64,000 bases of DNA from Beijerinckiaceae bacterium (GCA_947475995.1 CANJNI010000008.1:54467-118466), one strand, 5' to 3'; positions 31,331 to 39,851 are shown, numbered from the stretch's first letter. Program-made: numbers and translations. The notes: a model not told the origin generated them from the sequence alone.

Positions 31331-32218
31331 CTAGCCCTTCGGGGCCACATGGACCGCATCAAGCGCGCCTCGCAAGCCCTTTGCGAGTTTCTGCACGTCG
31401 TCATTTGCCCAGAAATGCACGAAGAACGCGCGAGGTTCGTCATCCAGCATGTGATTGTGAATCGCCGTCACCTCGATGCCGTTGCTGCGGAGCGCTTTCA
31501 GCAAGGGAGTCACTTCCTTTGCGAGGGCCACGAAGTCTCCTGTTATGGCTGCCTTGCCGTTGCCGCTCGACTGGAAGTTGATCGCAATGGCTGCGCCCAT
31601 TGGTCCGGCGACTTTCATGCCGTCCATCTTGATTTCGTCGGATCGCGGGATGCCAAACTGAAAGACGCCCCCGTTGTTGCGTCCCTTGAAGCCCAGGATC
31701 TCCTCCACTTGCGAAGTGTTGAAACCCGGTTCGGGCGCCTGAGCGCTCGCGGCGGGCGGGTCGAACGGGGTTTTGGACACAGAGAGCGCCGTCCGCACGG
31801 CTTTCGCGAGCTTCACAGGATCGCCATGCCCGGACACGTGCATGTAAAAGGTTGCGGGGCTCGCACGCAGAAGATGGTTGTGCAGAGCCGTCACCTCGAT
31901 TCCGCTTTCAAACAGTTTCGACATGACCGGATTGATTTCCGTTTCCGTCAGCACGAGATCGCCCATCATCATGGCGTCTGATCCCTTGTCTTCAAACGCG
32001 ATCCATCCGCCGAGCGCGAAGCCGGTCTTGATGTCGACGCCGTCCAGAGTCACCTTCAGGTCTGTGCGCGGAAGCCCGTAGCGATACACGCTGCCCGTCT
32101 GGGCATTGGTCTTGCCGATCGCCTGATCGACCGCTTTCCAGTCGGCCGCAACAGCGGGGAGCGGCGCTCCCGCAATCGAGAGGCAGGCCAGCATGAACAA
32201 ATGCGATTTGATTGTCAT
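31331..32218 (-). CDS. DUF1259 exported protein with internal duplication
   Basis: A 295-residue exported protein (signal LACLSIAGAPLPAVA) made of two similar halves. Each has YRYG/FQFGIPRxD, a Gly-rich hydrophobic strand, and a His motif: ALHNHLL in the first half and AIHNHML in the second. This is the DUF1259 (LppY/LpqO) pattern, of unknown function; the paired HNH motifs suggest metal binding. The start at 32218 has GGGAG upstream. First gene of the DUF1259-LamG-YncE unit. Confidence 0.85.
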   Translation of the reverse strand: MTIKSHLFMLACLSIAGAPLPAVAADWKAVDQAIGKTNAQTGSVYRYGLPRTDLKVTLDGVDIKTGFALGGWIAFEDKGSDAMMMGDLVLTETEINPVMSKLFESGIEVTALHNHLLRASPATFYMHVSGHGDPVKLAKAVRTALSVSKTPFDPPAASAQAPEPGFNTSQVEEILGFKGRNNGGVFQFGIPRSDEIKMDGMKVAGPMGAAIAINFQSSGNGKAAITGDFVALAKEVTPLLKALRSNGIEVTAIHNHMLDDEPRAFFVHFWANDDVQKLAKGLRGALDAVHVAPKG

Positions 32219-32640
32219 GGAATTCTCCCGTTCTTCAGGCGTGCATGCTGGACCTGTTCGGGTCCTGAATTTCGGGAGGAATGGCGGTTCGAACTGCAAG
32301 CCGCACACATCGCTCCTCCGTCGGACTTGTCCGAACAGGAAAAGCGGAACTTGGACGCGAAGCGTCTGAGTCGGGGCGTCCGCGCCGGCCCCGTCACTTC
32401 TAGATAATCCGATTGAAAGTCCGGCAAAGGACCGGAAAGTCCGCATTTCGTGCGCTGGACACGCGCTGGCGCGGGTGTCCGAAACGCAGCGCGGCGCCCC
32501 AACACTTGGCTACATGGCCATCGCTGCCATGGCAGAAAATGCGCTCATGGCGTCTTCCGGCGAGGCACAGAAGTGCCCGCAGCAGCGCGCCGTTAAAGCG
32601 CGTGCTTCTGAATATATTCTCTCGGGAAGGCTCTTGCCGG
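32219..32640. other. 422-base gap with a candidate operator
   Basis: No gene is supported here; the ORFs in the track overlap mucR or lack any motif. It must contain the promoter of the DUF1259 unit. TCGGAC-TT-GTCCGA at 32321-32334 is an inverted repeat about 100 bases upstream of that gene, and AAAGTCCG is repeated nearby at 32415 and 32436. The rest is unremarkable. Confidence 0.4.
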
Positions 32641-33078
32641 TCAGCGTCCCTTGCGGGGTCCCCGGAGGCTCTGGCCGTGCTTGCGGCCGAGGCCCATCTT
32701 CTTGGCGAGTTCCGACCGAGCGGCCGCATAGTTCGGGGCCACCATCGGATAATCCGCCGGCAGGCCCCAACGGGCGCGGTAGTCCTCGGGAGAAAGGTTG
32801 TGGTCGGTGCGCAGGTGGCGCTTGAGCGACTTGAAGCTCTTGCCGTCCTCCAGACACACGAGATGATCGTCGTGGATGGACTTGCGGACCGGCACGGCCG
32901 GGGCCGGCTTCTCGGCCGGGGCGGCCACAGGGGCGGGGGCGGCCGCTGCTCCGGTCAATTGCGCGACGGCCCGATGCACGGCGGCGATCAGTTCGGGAAG
33001 TTCGGACTTGGGCAGGTTGTTATTCGAAACATAAGCAGCCACGATATCTGCGGCCATTTCCAAAGTGGTGTCGGACAT
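32641..33078 (-). CDS. mucR: MucR/Ros family zinc-finger transcriptional regulator
   Basis: A 145-residue regulator. The C-terminal zinc-finger domain has the family pattern [31 protein letters not shown]. The middle is a Pro/Ala linker, and the N-terminus [20 protein letters not shown] is the usual oligomerisation helix. MucR proteins are H-NS-like silencers of horizontally acquired and surface genes in Rhizobiales and usually repress themselves. AGGAGG-like sequence (CGGAGGA) precedes the start. It lies between the copper/periplasm genes and the flavin module. Confidence 0.95.
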
Positions 33079-33221: not shown

Positions 33222-33506
33222 TCAGCTATCGTCGCGGCGGCGTTCCGGGCGTCGGCTTACCATGTCCAGCGTCGCCGGGTTGAACATGGCTTCGAGCCTT
33301 TCGCCGCGACCGTTGCGCGCGTGGACATGGTAGCAGCCGTCATTGACCCGCAGCATTTCGATGTTCCAGCCGTCTGTTTCGAGCCGTTGCTGCAGGGCCT
33401 GACGCGGCTTCCAGTCCGTGAGCGGCGCGCGGCAGCGGGGGGATGCGGCGGCTGAACCGCCGGCAAACGCCAATGTCAGGACCACAAGGACCGCAAGCCG
33501 GAACAC
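33222..33506 (-). CDS. small exported PepSY-domain protein
   Basis: A 94-residue exported protein: signal LAVLVVLTLAFAGGSAAA, then a single PepSY domain (DWKPRQALQQRLETDGWNIEMLRVNDGCYHVHARNGRGERLEAMFNPATLDMV). The track's ORF runs far upstream antisense to the response regulator. I use GTG 33504-33506 because GGGAGCG precedes it and the signal follows at once. It is divergent from the two-component genes, the usual layout where a PepSY protein is the target or inhibitor of the system. Confidence 0.82.
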   Translation of the reverse strand: MFRLAVLVVLTLAFAGGSAAASPRCRAPLTDWKPRQALQQRLETDGWNIEMLRVNDGCYHVHARNGRGERLEAMFNPATLDMVSRRPERRRDDS

Positions 33507-33635
33507 GACACGCTCCCACGCCAGATATCCACCATCCAAGCATATTTCCCTGACGAATGGCTGAATGATTGACCTAATTTTTTGCGCCGAAAGCGGCGCG
33601 CTCCAGCTAATCTGGGGCGAACGGACCGGAAATCC

Positions 33636-34307
33636 ATGCGCATTCTGCTTGTCGAAGACGATTCCCTGCTCGGCGCCGCCGTGCGCGACCAGATCATCTC
33701 CGAGGGCCACTCGGTCGACTGGGCGCGCCAGATCAGCAAGGCGACGGACTTCATCCTGTCCGCAGCCTACGATCTTGTGCTGCTCGACCTGATGCTGCCG
33801 GACGGCCGGGGTCTCGACTTCCTGAAGGGCCGCCGCGCCGCCGGGGACGTGACGCCCGTCATCATCCTCACGGCGCGCGACCAGATTTCCGACCGGATCG
33901 CCGGACTCAATGCCGGCGCTGACGATTATCTGGTCAAACCTTTCGACCTGTTCGAACTTTCCGCCCGGATCCGGGCTGTCGGGCGGCGCTATTCGGGCAA
34001 CCCCAATCCCCTCGTCACGATCGGCGATCTGGAGGTGGATCTGGCGGGGCGCACGGTGCGCCGCGGCGGCAGGCCTGTGCCGCTGACCTCGCGCGAATGG
34101 GCGCTTTTCGAAGGACTTGTGCAGCGACCCAACCAGTTGCTGTCCAAGGCGCAACTCGAAGAGCGTCTCTATTCTTTCGACACGGAAGTCGAGAGCAACA
34201 CGATCGAGGTCTATATCGGCCGAATCCGCAAGAAGCTCGGGCCAGCCGCCATCGAGACCGTGCGCGGCATGGGATACAGGCTCGGGTCTGCGGAGCGCGG
34301 CGCATGA
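33636..34307 (+). CDS. OmpR/PhoB-family response regulator
   Basis: A 223-residue two-domain regulator. The receiver has the acidic pair EDD, phospho-acceptor D51 (LLDLMLPDG) and the Lys in LVKPFD. The C-terminal winged helix (from about 130) shows LTSREWALFEGL and the recognition-helix region ESNTIEVYIGRIRKKLG. It resembles the QseB/PmrA type. The start at 33636 begins MRILLVEDD; the track start is 18 residues earlier without support. It overlaps the kinase gene by ATGA and probably controls the divergent PepSY gene and the downstream flavin genes. Confidence 0.95.
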   Translation: MRILLVEDDSLLGAAVRDQIISEGHSVDWARQISKATDFILSAAYDLVLLDLMLPDGRGLDFLKGRRAAGDVTPVIILTARDQISDRIAGLNAGADDYLVKPFDLFELSARIRAVGRRYSGNPNPLVTIGDLEVDLAGRTVRRGGRPVPLTSREWALFEGLVQRPNQLLSKAQLEERLYSFDTEVESNTIEVYIGRIRKKLGPAAIETVRGMGYRLGSAERGA

Positions 34308-35641
34308 CCGGCAAGCCGCAGCGATGGAGTCTTCAGCGCCGCCTGAGCCTGTGGATCGCCGGAGGCGTTGCGGGGCTCTGGATCGCCTCGGCGGTGGCTG
34401 CGGGATTCATCATCCGGCATGAAGTCTACGAGGTCTTCGACAGCGCCTTGCAGGAAGTGGCGCATCGCGTGCTGCCGCTGGCCTACGCGGAGCTGCTGAA
34501 CCGCGACTCCAACGAGACACAGTGGATCGCCCCGGTGGATCGCAACCGCGAGTACATCACCTATGTGGTGCGCGACGAGAATGGCCGCGACCTCATGCAG
34601 TCGAGCGACGACGAGACCATGCCGATCCCGCGCATGACGCGGCATGGATTCGCCACTGTGGGCGACTTGCGACTCTACACCGAGACGGCGGTGAGCGGCA
34701 CGATCGTGGTGACGGTGGCGGAAAATCTCGCACATCGCCGGGGCGCCGTGGTCAAGGCGATTCTGACGCTCGCATGGCCGTTGGCCGCATTGGTTCCGTT
34801 CGCGGCCATCGGCGTCTGGATGGCGGTGCGCTGGTCGCTGGCGTCGGTCGAAACCTTCCGGGCCGCCGTGGAATCGCGCGGGCAGGGCAATCTCAATGCG
34901 ATTGCGGCGGATGGCCTGCCGAATGAAATCGTGCCACTGGCGACTTCGGTCAATGCGCTGATCGGGCGAATGAAATCGGCGCTGGATGCGGAACGCAGCT
35001 TCACCGCCAACAGCGCACATGAATTGCGCACTCCCATTGCGGCGGCTCTGGCGCAAACGCAGCGACTTGTCAGCGAGCTTGGAGAGGCTCCGCAAGGCGA
35101 GCGCGCCCGCACGATCGAGTCCGCGCTCCGGCGTCTCGCGCGCTTGTCGGAAAAGCTCATGCAGCTGGCGCGGGCGGAGGGCGGCAGTCTCGTGGCGGAA
35201 CAGCCGACTCCGGTCGGCGAAATCCTGCGGTTCGTGGTGGACGAGGCCGAGCAGCAAAGCGGCGCGCAGGGCAAGATCGCGCTCGAAATGCCGGCGAGCG
35301 GCGGACCGGCGCTCGAGATCGACCCTGACGCCTTCGGCATCATGGCGCGCAATCTCATCGAAAACGCCATCCGGCATGGCGATCCGGCGCTGCCTGTGCG
35401 GGTCAGCCTTCGCGACGACCGGCTTGAGGTCGCCAATGGAGGGGCAGCCATCGCGCCGGAGGTTCTGGAGCGCCTGACGCGGCCGTTCGAGCGCGGCGCG
35501 ACGCCGGCAGAGGGGTCGGGCCTCGGTCTTGCAATCGTCAACGCCATTTGCCGCGGGGCGGGTTTCCGGCTTGCCCTTCAATCGCCCGTAGCAGGTCAGC
35601 CCGAGGGCTTTCTGGCGACCGTGCATTTTTCGCGCACATGA
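34304..35641 (+). CDS. sensor histidine kinase (QseC/PmrB-like)
   Basis: A 445-residue inner-membrane kinase. Two membrane helices (about 15-38 and 152-174) flank a roughly 115-residue periplasmic sensor domain. HAMP-like and dimerisation regions follow; the phospho-acceptor is H239 in NSAHELRTPIA. The ATP-binding N box is NLIENAIRHG and the G box GSGLGLAIV. The start at 34304 overlaps the response regulator stop. The signal sensed is unknown; neighbours suggest redox, flavin or metal status. Confidence 0.94.
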   Translation: MTGKPQRWSLQRRLSLWIAGGVAGLWIASAVAAGFIIRHEVYEVFDSALQEVAHRVLPLAYAELLNRDSNETQWIAPVDRNREYITYVVRDENGRDLMQSSDDETMPIPRMTRHGFATVGDLRLYTETAVSGTIVVTVAENLAHRRGAVVKAILTLAWPLAALVPFAAIGVWMAVRWSLASVETFRAAVESRGQGNLNAIAADGLPNEIVPLATSVNALIGRMKSALDAERSFTANSAHELRTPIAAALAQTQRLVSELGEAPQGERARTIESALRRLARLSEKLMQLARAEGGSLVAEQPTPVGEILRFVVDEAEQQSGAQGKIALEMPASGGPALEIDPDAFGIMARNLIENAIRHGDPALPVRVSLRDDRLEVANGGAAIAPEVLERLTRPFERGATPAEGSGLGLAIVNAICRGAGFRLALQSPVAGQPEGFLATVHFSRT

Positions 35642-35734
35642 CCTGACGCGCAACTGAAGAGAATTTTCGCCAGGGTTCAGGGGACTGTCAGCCAGCGCAG
35701 GCAATGTGAACCCGTCCGCACCCTGGAGGTTCAC

Positions 35735-36046
35735 ATGTCCAAACGTCTCTTGATTGGCTCCGTGCTGCTCGCGTGCGCCACGGTTGCCGGAGTCGCGCTT
35801 GCGGCGAATTATCGCGAAAGCCGCGAATACCGACGTCACGAGTCGCGCCTCGACCGTGACGATGACGGCAAATATTTTGGCCGTCGCGAGCGCGAACACC
35901 ACGGCGAGCGCAGGTCCCGCGACGAGCGCGGAGAGCGCGGTCGCCGGCGCGAGGCTGCGCAGGGCGCTCCGCCGAACGACGCCCAGCCGCTGCCGGATAC
36001 AAATCTGTTCACCAACGGCAAGCGGCCGCAGGTCGAAGTCCGTTAA
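35735..36046 (+). CDS. small exported highly charged protein
   Basis: A 103-residue exported protein. After the signal peptide (LLIGSVLLACATVAGVALA) the mature part is dominated by Arg, Glu, Asp and His (HESRLDRDDDGKYFGRR, then REREHHGERRSRDERGERGRR) and ends LPDTNLFTNGKRPQVEVR. It is probably disordered. No family is recognised. It sits 93 bases after the kinase gene and 21 before the DUF2271 gene, so it is likely part of the flavin module. Confidence 0.78.
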   Translation: MSKRLLIGSVLLACATVAGVALAANYRESREYRRHESRLDRDDDGKYFGRREREHHGERRSRDERGERGRRREAAQGAPPNDAQPLPDTNLFTNGKRPQVEVR

Positions 36047-36067
36047 TTCGCAATCGAGGAGATTTTC

Positions 36068-36538
36068 ATGAGCAAGACCTTGCTTCCCGTCATGGCCGCC
36101 GCCACCGCGATTGCGGCGCCCGGACTCGCAGAGGCGCGTCAGGTGACGATTGAAGCCCAGTTGAAGAACTACAGCGGAGACGGCGCCTATCTGGCGGTTT
36201 ACGTCACGGACGCAGCCGGAAAATACAAGGGCACACTCTGGATGGCAGGGCGCAAGTCGCGTTTCTGGAGCCATCTGACCGACTGGGCGAAGCAGGCGGG
36301 GCGCAGCGCCAATGTCGACGGCATTACGGGCGCAAGTGTCGGGTCGGGCAAGACGCTGAAGATCAGCGTCGATATCGCCGACGCCCTGATCGACGCAGGC
36401 TATCAGGTGCGGGTGGATTCTTCCGTCGAGGATGCGCGCGACTACGGCTCGGACGCGGTCGCGCCACTTGCGACGGCGTCGTCCGGCAAGCCCGCCCCCG
36501 GCAAAGGCTATGTGCAGACCCTCAAGGTGACTTTCTAG
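36068..36538 (+). CDS. DUF2271 exported protein, candidate flavoprotein
   Basis: A 156-residue exported protein of the DUF2271 family (signal VMAAATAIAAPGLAEA). The sequence VDGITGASVGSGKT near residue 90 resembles the D-x-x-(S/T)-G-A-(S/T) motif to which ApbE attaches FMN through a Thr/Ser. With apbE two genes downstream, I infer covalent flavinylation in the periplasm; from memory, DUF2271 has been grouped with ApbE in comparative genomics. A strand-rich fold follows (LKISVDIADALIDAGYQVRVD). Good ribosome site (GAGGAG). Thirteen bases separate it from the next gene. Confidence 0.87.
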   Translation: MSKTLLPVMAAATAIAAPGLAEARQVTIEAQLKNYSGDGAYLAVYVTDAAGKYKGTLWMAGRKSRFWSHLTDWAKQAGRSANVDGITGASVGSGKTLKISVDIADALIDAGYQVRVDSSVEDARDYGSDAVAPLATASSGKPAPGKGYVQTLKVTF

Positions 36539-36551
36539 TCTGGAGCGAGAC

Positions 36552-38096
36552 ATGTTCAGACGCTGGCATTCCCTGACAGGATTGATCCTCGGGCTTCTGC
36601 TGATCGTGACCTCGATCAGCGGAGCGATTCTGGCGATCGAACCAACGCTGGACCGGATCGAGAATCCATCCATCCCGCAGGGCGTCAGCGTCGCCGCGCT
36701 GGCGGAAAAAGTCGTCGCTCGTCATGAGAGCGTCAGCCGCATTGCGGTGCGCCCGAATGGCGCGGTGACGGTGAGTTATGCAGACGGCGAACAATCGGGC
36801 GTCGAGCGCGTCGATCCGTCCACCGGCGCGGGGCTTGGACCGTACCAGAATTCGGAAGCGAGCCTGTTTGTGACGAACCTGCATCGCGCCTTCCTGGCAG
36901 GCGACGTGGGGCGCGACATTGCAGCGGCGAGCGCGGCCGGTATCCTTGTCCTCAGCATCTCGGGGCTTTTTCTGCTCGCGCGCCGGCAGGGCGGCTGGTC
37001 GCAGCTTTTGCGCCCGGCGATCGGTGAAGGCGCGCAAAGGCTGCACGCCGAGGTCGCGCGCATTGCAATTGCCGGATTGCTGGTGCTGTCGTTATCGGGC
37101 GTCTGGATGTCGGCCGACTGGCTGGGGCTCGTCCCGCAGCCGCCGCGTGCTGATCTGACGACCGGCAGCGGCAGGCCCGCTGCTCCTTTGGGCGCCCTGC
37201 AGACGCTACGCAACACGGAGCTCGCTTCGCTCAAGGAGCTGAATTTTCCCTCGCCAATGGATCCTGAGGACGTGTTCACGCTCAAGACCGGCGAGGGCGA
37301 GACGCAGATCGATCCAGCCAACGGGGATGTGCTGGCTTTCACTCCGGTGACCGCAATTGACCGGGTGCAGGATTTCGTCCGGATGATGCATACGGGCCGC
37401 GGAGTCTGGGCGCTGGGTCTCGTGTTGGGATTGTCCTCTGCGGCCGTGCCGGTTCTGGCCGTGAGCGGAACCCTGATCTGGCTGCGCCGTCGCCGCGTGG
37501 CGGTGGTGGCGTCAAGAGACGCAAGCCGCAAGCCTTCAACAGTGATCCTCGTTGGCAGCGAAGGCAACGTCACATGGGGCTTTGCGCATGCGCTTTCCTC
37601 CGCTCTTGCGGCGGAGGGCTGCGCGATCCGGATCGCGGCCATGAACGACGTCAGTCAGGATGATCTGGAGGCGCAGCGTGTGCTGATCCTTACATCCACC
37701 TACGGGCAGGGCGACGCCCCCGCCTCGGCGTCGGATTTCCTGGCCCGGTTGAAGACCATCGATGGCGAGACGCCTTTCGCGGTGCTTGGCTTCGGCGACC
37801 GTCGTTTCAAGCAGTTCTGCGGCTTTGCCGAACAGGTCTCGCATGAACTCACGGCGCGCGGGTGGCAGGCGATTCTGCCCCTCGGGCGGGTGGACCGCCA
37901 GTCGGCTGAGGCTTTCGCCCAATGGGGCGATGATCTCGGCCGCGCCATGGGCGTCGTGCTGAAGCTCGAACACACGCCAGAGCGTCCGCGCCGTAATCGG
38001 GTGCGCAATGTCGCCGCGAGCAGCGATGTGCAGTTGGCGCCTGCCCCCGCCGCGGTGCCGGTGCGCGCTCGCGAAGGAGCCCGCCGTGTCGGTTGA
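36552..38096 (+). CDS. PepSY-type membrane protein fused to a flavodoxin domain
   Basis: A 514-residue inner-membrane redox protein. The N-terminal part is a PepSY-associated TM protein: helix 1 (LTGLILGLLLIVTSISGAIL), NLHRAFLAG before helix 2, helix 3 (IAIAGLLVLSLSGVWM), and a fourth helix after MMHTGRGVWALG. The His residues at helix ends could bind haem. From about residue 325 a flavodoxin domain begins: ILVGSEGNVTWGFAHALSSAL, LTSTYGQGDAP, VLGFGDRRFKQFC. Longer relatives continue into an FAD/NADPH reductase domain; this one stops after a basic Pro/Ala tail. It overlaps apbE by 11 bases. Confidence 0.88.
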   Translation: MFRRWHSLTGLILGLLLIVTSISGAILAIEPTLDRIENPSIPQGVSVAALAEKVVARHESVSRIAVRPNGAVTVSYADGEQSGVERVDPSTGAGLGPYQNSEASLFVTNLHRAFLAGDVGRDIAAASAAGILVLSISGLFLLARRQGGWSQLLRPAIGEGAQRLHAEVARIAIAGLLVLSLSGVWMSADWLGLVPQPPRADLTTGSGRPAAPLGALQTLRNTELASLKELNFPSPMDPEDVFTLKTGEGETQIDPANGDVLAFTPVTAIDRVQDFVRMMHTGRGVWALGLVLGLSSAAVPVLAVSGTLIWLRRRRVAVVASRDASRKPSTVILVGSEGNVTWGFAHALSSALAAEGCAIRIAAMNDVSQDDLEAQRVLILTSTYGQGDAPASASDFLARLKTIDGETPFAVLGFGDRRFKQFCGFAEQVSHELTARGWQAILPLGRVDRQSAEAFAQWGDDLGRAMGVVLKLEHTPERPRRNRVRNVAASSDVQLAPAPAAVPVRAREGARRVG

Positions 38097-39021
38097 TGTT
38101 CTCGATCGAGCCCTGCGACGGCATTCCGTGCATGGACCGACCATGGGCTCGCGCTGGACGGCGACGTGGGAGAGTCTGGCCGGCGACGATGTGTCGGGCG
38201 TTCGGGCGCAGTTGCAGGAGGCCGTGGACCGCGTCGACGACCAGATGTCGACATGGAAGCCACAGTCGGACCTCAACAGGCTCAACGATGCGCCAGTCGG
38301 CGTCTGGGTCGAACTGCCGCACGAACTGATCTGCGTGCTCGACGCCGCGCTGGAGATCGGACGCGCATCCGCAGGGGCGTTCAACATCGGCGTCGGCGAT
38401 CTCGTCAAGAATTGGGGTTTCGGGTTCGGGGCCCGTTCGGCCGATGAGAACCTCATCGCGATGCACGCGCCGCTCCTGTGCGATCCGCCGCAGACGTTGC
38501 GGGTTGACACGGTCGCGTTGCGCGCCATGAAACTCGCGCCCTTGCGGCTCGATCTTTCCGGCATCGCCAAGGGGTTCGGGGTGGACCAACTCGCCGGTGT
38601 GATGAATGCCGGCGGCATCGGTTCCTGGCTGGTCAGCATCGACGGGGAAATGCGCGCGCAGGGCATGCGCTCTGACGGGCAGGCATGGACCGTCGCGCTG
38701 GAGCGGCCGGAAGATGAGGCGCGCGAGGCGCTGGGAGTCATCGAGCTTGTCGATTCAGCCGTGGCGACCTCGGGCGACTACCGGCATTTCAGGATGCATA
38801 AGGGCAGGCGCGTGTCGCACACGATGGATGCGCGCACCGGTGCGCCGGCCGAGAATGATCTGGCGTCGGTGACGGTGCTGGCGGATCTGTGCATGATGGC
38901 GGACGCATGGGCGACGGCCATCATGGTGATGGGCGCGCAGCGCGGCTTCGCCATCGCGGAAAAGCTTCAGCTACCCGCGATTCTTGTCACCCGCGACGGC
39001 CGCATTCTGTCCACGCTTTGA
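38086..39021 (+). CDS. apbE: FAD:protein FMN transferase
   Basis: A 311-residue ApbE protein, which attaches FMN from FAD to Ser/Thr of periplasmic proteins using Mg2+. Motifs are PTMGSRWTATW, the region QMSTWKPQSDLNRLN, GDLVKNWGFG, DLSGIAKGFGVD, the SGDYRHF loop and SHTMDARTGAPA. The track ORF starts inside the preceding gene; I use GTG 38086, with AAGGAG upstream. No obvious signal peptide is present, which is unusual because most ApbE proteins are exported; the start or the site of action is therefore uncertain. Confidence 0.92.
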   Translation: MSVDVLDRALRRHSVHGPTMGSRWTATWESLAGDDVSGVRAQLQEAVDRVDDQMSTWKPQSDLNRLNDAPVGVWVELPHELICVLDAALEIGRASAGAFNIGVGDLVKNWGFGFGARSADENLIAMHAPLLCDPPQTLRVDTVALRAMKLAPLRLDLSGIAKGFGVDQLAGVMNAGGIGSWLVSIDGEMRAQGMRSDGQAWTVALERPEDEAREALGVIELVDSAVATSGDYRHFRMHKGRRVSHTMDARTGAPAENDLASVTVLADLCMMADAWATAIMVMGAQRGFAIAEKLQLPAILVTRDGRILSTL

Positions 39022-39155
39022 TCCGGATGGCATGTCGAGGAACAGCGCTGGCGCGCTGGCGAGGCTCCTTGCGGGCTCCCGATTGATGTTTGCTTGCGGC
39101 CAACCGATTTATTCGGTCAAATGCCGCCAAGACGAGACAAATCGGGGGGAAGGCA

Positions 39156-39851
39156 ATGAGGAATGGGCGCGGAGCGCTCGTTTGCCTGCTGGCAGTGCTG
39201 ATGCCGACGCTCGCGCTCGCTCATGCCATCGGCGGCAAGGACGCCGCCTTTGTGGCAGCCACATCAGGCCCGGCCGCGCTGCCTTTTGCTTATCTCGGCG
39301 CGAAGCACATGGTGACCGGGTACGACCACCTGCTGTTCCTGCTTGGGGTCATCTTCTTTCTGCATCGCCTCAGGGATGTGGCGCTCTACGTCACCCTGTT
39401 TTCCATCGGCCATTCGCTGACGCTTGCGACGGGCGTTGCGGCGAATCTCAACGTCAGTTCTTACCTCGTGGATGCGGTGATCGGATTGTCGGTCGCCTGG
39501 AAAGGGTTCGATAATCTGGGAGGATTCCGGGTCCTGTTCGGCGTCCAGCCGGACAATCGTCTCGTGGTCCTGTGTTTCGGCCTCGTCCATGGATTCGGGC
39601 TCGCCACGAAACTTCAGGACCTGCATCTCAAGCCGGAGGGGTTGGGGGTGAACCTCGCATCCTTCAACATTGGCGTCGAGATGGGCCAGTTGCTGGTCCT
39701 GAGTTTTCTGGTTCTGGGCCTTGCGATCCTGCGCGGGCTGCCGCTGTTCATGGCTGCGTCGAGACTCTCGAATGCAGCCTTGATTACGGCGGGGTTCATC
39801 ATCGCGGGCGGCCAGTTCGCCGGGCATGTCCTGTCGGGGAGCGCATCGTGA
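39156..39851 (+). CDS. HupE/UreJ-like membrane protein
   Basis: A 231-residue membrane protein of the HupE/UreJ_2 family: signal-like first helix (VCLLAVLMPTLALAHA), then five or six helices with conserved His/Asp: GYDHLLFLLG, FSIGHSLTLA and GLVHGFGLA. Family members are putative metal (nickel or cobalt) permeases. The start at 39156 follows GGGGGAAGG; the track start is 22 residues upstream. It overlaps the next gene by GTGA, so the two products probably act together. Confidence 0.85.
   Translation: MRNGRGALVCLLAVLMPTLALAHAIGGKDAAFVAATSGPAALPFAYLGAKHMVTGYDHLLFLLGVIFFLHRLRDVALYVTLFSIGHSLTLATGVAANLNVSSYLVDAVIGLSVAWKGFDNLGGFRVLFGVQPDNRLVVLCFGLVHGFGLATKLQDLHLKPEGLGVNLASFNIGVEMGQLLVLSFLVLGLAILRGLPLFMAASRLSNAALITAGFIIAGGQFAGHVLSGSAS

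Follow-up and report, generated by a model that had tools for sequence, protein, structure and literature searches.

A putative two-component-regulated flavin relay with a reductase-less PepSY_TM–flavodoxin fusion in a Beijerinckiaceae bacterium

The locus and its conservation

The stretch of DNA analysed here (the window) comprises 64,000 nt of the genome of a Beijerinckiaceae bacterium (GCA_947475995.1, CANJNI010000008.1:54467-118466), and positions 33222-39021 of it carry a compact module that probably encodes a two-component-regulated, ApbE-dependent flavin relay across the cytoplasmic membrane. A first-pass annotation, made from the sequence alone, had placed a PepSY protein, a response regulator, a histidine kinase, a charged exported peptide, a DUF2271 protein, a PepSY_TM–flavodoxin fusion and ApbE in close succession at this site. 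Pfam searches bore this out, with all parts except the peptide exceeding the curated Pfam cut-off. A small exported PepSY_2 protein is encoded on the minus strand (33222-33506, with a GTG start at 33506; PF13670, 7.5e-20), divergently from the regulator and thus in a DbfQ-like position. On the plus strand follow an OmpR-type response regulator of the PmrA/QseB-like kind (33636-34307, ATG at 33636; Response_reg and Trans_reg_C) and a QseC/PmrB-like sensor histidine kinase (34304-35641; HisKA and HATPase_c), whose ATG at 34304 overlaps the regulator stop codon. The charged peptide of 103 amino acids (35735-36046) comes next, then the DUF2271 protein (36068-36538; 4e-33) with a Sec-type signal and the motif DGITGAS, the 514-residue fusion (36552-38096; PepSY_TM, PF03929, 1.1e-39; Flavodoxin_1, 1.1e-16) and finally an ApbE flavin mononucleotide (FMN) transferase without a signal peptide (38086-39021; PF02424, 2.9e-75), whose GTG start at 38086 stands behind GAAGGAG and overlaps the stop codon of the fusion.

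The fusion was found in 31 of 249 genomes sampled from the order Hyphomicrobiales, and the same genes are clustered in most of 30 other genomes of this sample. The genes for PepSY_2, regulator and kinase, DUF2271, fusion and ApbE mainly follow one of two layouts, in which the regulator genes are placed upstream in line or divergently, and largely the same neighbourhood recurs in 80 named loci, mostly from Alpha-, Beta- and Gammaproteobacteria. Such recurrent linkage in the order sample and in most of the named loci means that the grouping is not due to chance; the first-pass annotation would have been abandoned without conserved co-occurrence, which is strongly evident in both sets. Within the family of the window, the fusion is present in 9 of 99 genomes, and the module is absent from three other genomes of the genus. 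Because of this sparse distribution and a guanine–cytosine content of about 65-67% over the operon, as against about 59-62% in most of the flanks, the module was probably acquired horizontally.

A shared operator supports a link between the two-component genes and the redox operon

An important question is whether the two-component genes control the redox genes or just lie beside them. The region between the PepSY_2 and regulator genes and the region upstream of the peptide and DUF2271 genes have a direct repeat in common, CTGA-N7-CTGA (in fuller form CTGAC-N6-CTGAA). In the window it appears as a tandem operator in the PepSY_2/regulator promoter region (CTGACGAATGGCTGAAT, 33550-33566, plus strand) and, in front of the redox operon, as CTGACAGTCCCCTGAAC in the minus-strand reading (35675-35691, minus strand), next to a partly matching third site, CTGACGCGCAACTGA (35643-35657, plus strand). 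The repeat is present in 59 of 65 orthologous PepSY_2/regulator regions and in 60 of 92 peptide/DUF2271 regions (0.5 and 0.7, respectively, in shuffled sequences), essentially only at a spacing of 7. At least one site lies upstream of DUF2271 in 84 of the 91 loci with two-component genes, against a downstream background of 21 sites in 563 kb; 7 of 15 loci without two-component genes in the fetched stretch, some of them on cut contigs, still have a site. The strict form has five exact matches in the 4.14-Mb genome, twice in the module and three times inside or at the edge of unrelated genes, and a reversed control gave zero matches. TTAAG-type boxes of the PmrA/BqsR-like kind were also considered and are not enriched; the CTGA-N7-CTGA repeat was found instead. 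Many loci (L046, L054, L150 and similar) have two close operators of opposite orientation between the regulator and DUF2271 genes, and in these paired operators the half-site ends vary between AAC and AGC.

The operator common to both promoters thus supports the earlier claim that the two-component system is linked to the redox genes. It is very improbable that these genes represent an unrelated metal or envelope-stress system merely adjoining the redox operon: modules combining a PepSY protein with a two-component system are indeed widespread (PMC12714742), but neither the common operator nor a linkage that is kept in two different gene arrangements would be expected of simple neighbours.

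With respect to the signal, the regulator scores 212 bits against the NCBIfam PmrA model, i.e. below its cut-off of 330, and its nearest solved structures are those of BasR/PmrA. The kinase has a periplasmic HEVYE (H-ExxE) directly after its first membrane helix, and both glutamates of this H/R-ExxE motif are present in 45 of 64 kinases; an ExxE-type motif has been described in iron-sensing kinases (PMC12666569), including the sensor of BqsS. The PepSY_2 protein has two conserved cysteines, along with a conserved DGCY. In DbfQRS, the PepSY protein encoded beside the two-component system binds the sensor domain of the kinase (PMC12714742), and the window shares with DbfQRS and BqsPQRS (PMC12714742, PMC12666569) a small exported PepSY protein beside regulator and kinase. 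It differs from them in adjoining a flavin relay, in its PmrA/QseB-like regulator and in the CTGAC-N6-CTGAA box. FeuNPQ was considered as the closest two-component system, with a literature search only, and was not adopted.

An exported peptide related to the tail of the PepSY_2 protein

The peptide encoded in front of DUF2271 consists of a signal peptide, an Arg/Asp/His-rich linker with DRDDDG and the C-terminal motif PDTNLFTNGKRPQVEVR. No Pfam or NCBIfam family matches it above threshold, the sub-threshold match being to Excalibur (0.0043). In relatives, the peptides encoded at this position likewise combine a signal peptide and a D/H/R-rich linker with the ending NGLFxGKxRPKVEV[QN]; the window peptide retains this family ending, but its acidic tract is weaker. 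By an approximate, pattern-based count, a comparable linker and ending occur as the tail of PepSY_2 itself in 24 loci and as a separate gene in 36, and no locus has both. Judged by these patterns, the peptide belongs to an unnamed family that represents the detached tail of the PepSY_2 protein. AlphaFold2 left the C-terminal tail unstructured and did not dock it on PepSY_2 (predicted local distance difference test score about 47-65). The peptide probably serves to bind metal or to dock by way of its C-terminal motif.

The fusion protein and its missing reductase

The PepSY_TM membrane region of the fusion matches, at the profile level, a single protein in the PDB, namely FoxB of P. aeruginosa (7ABW, 5.7e-7), a protein with two known heme sites (PMC11334425). 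The region in the window protein has five histidines, of which four (H6, H111, H165 and H280) are invariant across 29 diverse sequences and are candidate heme ligands. The window protein thus has in common with FoxB a homologous membrane core with the heme-ligand histidines, and in contrast to FoxB it adds a flavodoxin domain and the partners DUF2271 and ApbE. The flavodoxin domain (residues 332-455) has kept the FMN loops TSTYGQGD and GFGDRRF, a likeness to diflavin proteins of the CysJ/P450 reductase type. A Foldseek search with the fusion model returned mostly flavodoxin and P450-reductase matches as well as flavodoxin-fused receptors and was uninformative for the membrane part, which was therefore assigned by sequence profile. 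Inspection of the fusion sequence revealed no flavinylation motif.

In every intact relative of standard layout, the frame of the fusion extends over about 720 amino acids or more and ends in a CysJ-like flavin adenine dinucleotide (FAD)/NAD(P) reductase, a domain that tblastn detected in all 80 named loci. By contrast, neither Pfam nor comparison with relatives revealed this C-terminal FAD/NAD(P)H reductase domain, and with it a cytosolic NAD-binding donor, in the window fusion. The protein parallels its relatives to about residue 490 and stops after a trace of the strand that follows, with a tail of 37 residues (478-514) predicted to be disordered, and the gap from flavodoxin to ApbE measures 88 bases instead of about 750. 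The possibility that a frameshift or a gene split conceals the reductase was considered and rejected, because the flavodoxin tail is followed in the DNA directly by ApbE. Searching the genome for the reductase gave no close copy and only a weak match to an oxygenase reductase (1.1e-5). With the domain absent, the electron donor of the window relay is uncertain.

A second protein of this kind exists in another genome (G027), where PepSY_TM, flavodoxin and ApbE are joined in one frame of 849 amino acids without a reductase (L062:5694-8072, contig 1). In this protein, ApbE would follow the flavodoxin on the cytosolic side. A DUF2271 gene lies upstream of the 849-residue fusion, and frames resembling a NapC-type multiheme cytochrome and a TorA-type molybdenum reductase, as read by eye, are located nearby.

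Has the window copy, then, simply begun to decay? Under this alternative, a horizontally acquired module would have lost its electron input with the deletion of the reductase, and the operon would no longer function as a reductase. The universal presence of the domain in the named relatives and in intact relatives of the order and family, the disordered tail of the fusion, the patchy distribution in family and genus and the deviating base composition are all in line with such a course. On the other hand, every reading frame is intact, the FMN loops, the four histidines and the ApbE and DUF2271 motifs are retained, the ApbE start keeps its Shine–Dalgarno sequence and its overlapping coupling, the operators are still in place and a reductase-less PepSY_TM–flavodoxin protein exists in a second genome. 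Taken together, this makes decay a somewhat unlikely explanation, though one to be reckoned with.

DUF2271, ApbE and the side of flavinylation

DGITGAS corresponds to residues 84-90 of the only DUF2271 protein in the genome, with Thr87 (codon 36326-36328) as the predicted FMN site. The resemblance of this motif to an ApbE target, pointed out in the first-pass annotation, is corroborated by the conservation of TGA[ST] in 79 of 81 DUF2271 proteins and by experimental evidence that a homologous DUF2271 protein is a substrate of its ApbE, with flavinylation at [ST]GA[ST] (Meheust 2021, PMC8238504). The protein has a Sec-like N-terminus and no twin-arginine motif, and only one of the 81 proteins has a twin-arginine-like one, with signal peptides judged by eye and hydrophobicity rather than by a dedicated program. 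ApbE proteins of these clusters, in contrast, typically begin with MSK[TM]S[TI][DE]...GPTMG and have no hydrophobic stretch; a signal-less start was seen in the order sample and at each of the 58 named loci where ApbE is adjacent, and the N-terminal residues of ApbE are encoded where its gene overlaps the fusion end YVEDVY. With an ApbE that lacks a signal peptide, periplasmic flavinylation cannot simply be assumed.

One way out would be that the cluster ApbE does not modify DUF2271 at all and that the Tat-type (twin-arginine translocation) ApbEs of the genome do so, or that DUF2271 is not flavinylated. Apart from the missing signal peptide of the cluster ApbE, this alternative can point to the window genome itself, in which two additional ApbEs have Tat-type signals and adjoin NosR-like genes, and to the 20 genomes with an ApbE-less cluster, all of which have an ApbE elsewhere, mostly of the lipoprotein type. 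We nevertheless consider it unlikely, since close linkage and translational coupling tie the cluster ApbE to the fusion, since the signal-less ApbE at the cluster coordinates is the sole ApbE in 11 of 22 genomes tested, and since cytosolic ApbE activity is known (PMC12052999). From the combination of a signal-less ApbE, an exported DUF2271 protein and genomes with no other ApbE, it would follow that DUF2271 receives its flavin as a preprotein in the cytosol or else, where present, from another ApbE. In the literature searched we found no cytosolic ApbE acting on an exported target.

The two Tat-type ApbE genes of the window genome (L192:4315-7508 on contig 12 and L193:7418-10634 on contig 19) each adjoin genes for a NosR-like large membrane protein, an ABC transporter and xanthine-dehydrogenase-like proteins, as read by eye. 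Two Halomonas loci (L185 and L188) belong to genomes with a signal-less MSKTSTE-type ApbE away from the ApbE-less cluster, plus one of the lipoprotein type.

A proposed relay and its relation to known systems

Thousands of clusters combining PepSY, DUF2271 and ApbE, with links to iron, have been described (Meheust 2021, PMC8238504), and in Caulobacter a related operon is responsive to iron limitation (PMC12004947). The PepSY-like systems have been proposed to pass electrons to a flavin outside the cytosol and to reduce iron. About one-third of their PepSY-like genes carry an NAD-binding domain (PMC8238504). The window shares with them a PepSY_TM protein (PF03929), a DUF2271 substrate with [ST]GA[ST] and ApbE in one cluster, with at least one of the key gene products carrying a signal peptide. 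It differs in that its fusion contains a flavodoxin domain and no reductase, that its ApbE lacks a signal peptide, that a DUF4198 gene is missing from the module, and that a two-component system with a defined operator and a gene for the tail peptide are added. Thus, the core of the relay is already known, and its control circuit, the peptide and the loss of the reductase, additions drawn from about 115 loci, appear new; no paper joining these parts was found in the largely open-access literature searched.

Overall, we give a probability of roughly two in three to a two-component-regulated, ApbE-dependent transmembrane flavin relay. Electrons would reach the FMN of the cytosolic CysJ-type flavodoxin domain, cross the membrane via two hemes held by the four invariant histidines of PepSY_TM and reduce the FMN attached to the exported DUF2271 protein. 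This protein would in turn pass the electrons to an acceptor in the periplasm, with Fe(III) or another metal as the most likely candidate. In the relatives, NAD(P)H would feed in through the C-terminal FAD/NAD(P) reductase domain; as this domain is gone in the window genome, a separate reductase would have to supply the flavodoxin. The kinase, probably assisted by the PepSY_2 protein, would sense a periplasmic metal cue, for which the H/R-ExxE motif makes ferrous iron the best guess, and the regulator would drive its own promoter and the redox operon via the tandem CTGAC-N6-CTGAA sites. The exported Asp/His/Arg-rich peptide would contribute by metal binding or docking.

Several observations weigh against this interpretation. 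The reductase domain is missing, and the only three NAD_binding_1 proteins found in the genome look like oxygenase reductases; DUF2271 is exported, yet its presumed modifying enzyme lacks a signal peptide; and the neighbours examined did not include an identifiable iron-transport gene. Moreover, DbfQRS of V. cholerae did not respond to added iron (PMC12714742), which makes a metal cue for the kinase a guess. The original idea of electrons passing from a cytosolic flavodoxin to a periplasmic flavin is therefore borne out in part: the components are present, but the flavodoxin has no evident electron source in this genome and the ApbE is signal-less.

A more integrated scheme can be imagined, though we regard it as speculative and, as a whole, unlikely. 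DUF2271 would receive its FMN from the signal-less ApbE while still a cytosolic preprotein, ahead of Sec-dependent export, the D/H-rich peptide would carry metal between the flavin reductase and the kinase, the product of the relay, e.g. Fe(II), would be read back via the CTGAC operator, and the built-in reductase would have been exchanged for one acting in trans.

For future studies, a widespread extracytosolic flavin relay tied to a metal-type sensor via a defined operator provides an experimental handle on both inducer and substrate. The peptide constitutes an undescribed exported family with a Rosetta-stone link to a PepSY sensor accessory protein, the pairing of a signal-less ApbE with an exported target exposes a problem of topology, and the reductase-less natural variant offers a test of how such relays obtain their electrons.

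Neighbouring genes

Directly after ApbE and on the same strand, the window encodes a HupE/UreJ_2 membrane protein (39090-39851); it was considered as a member of the module and rejected, as it was not found near any relative of the cluster. Upstream of the module, on the minus strand, lie a gene for a protein with two PF07485 (DUF1259/DUF1529) stretches (31331-32446) and, between this gene and that for PepSY_2, a ROS/MucR-type regulator gene (32641-33078, also minus strand).

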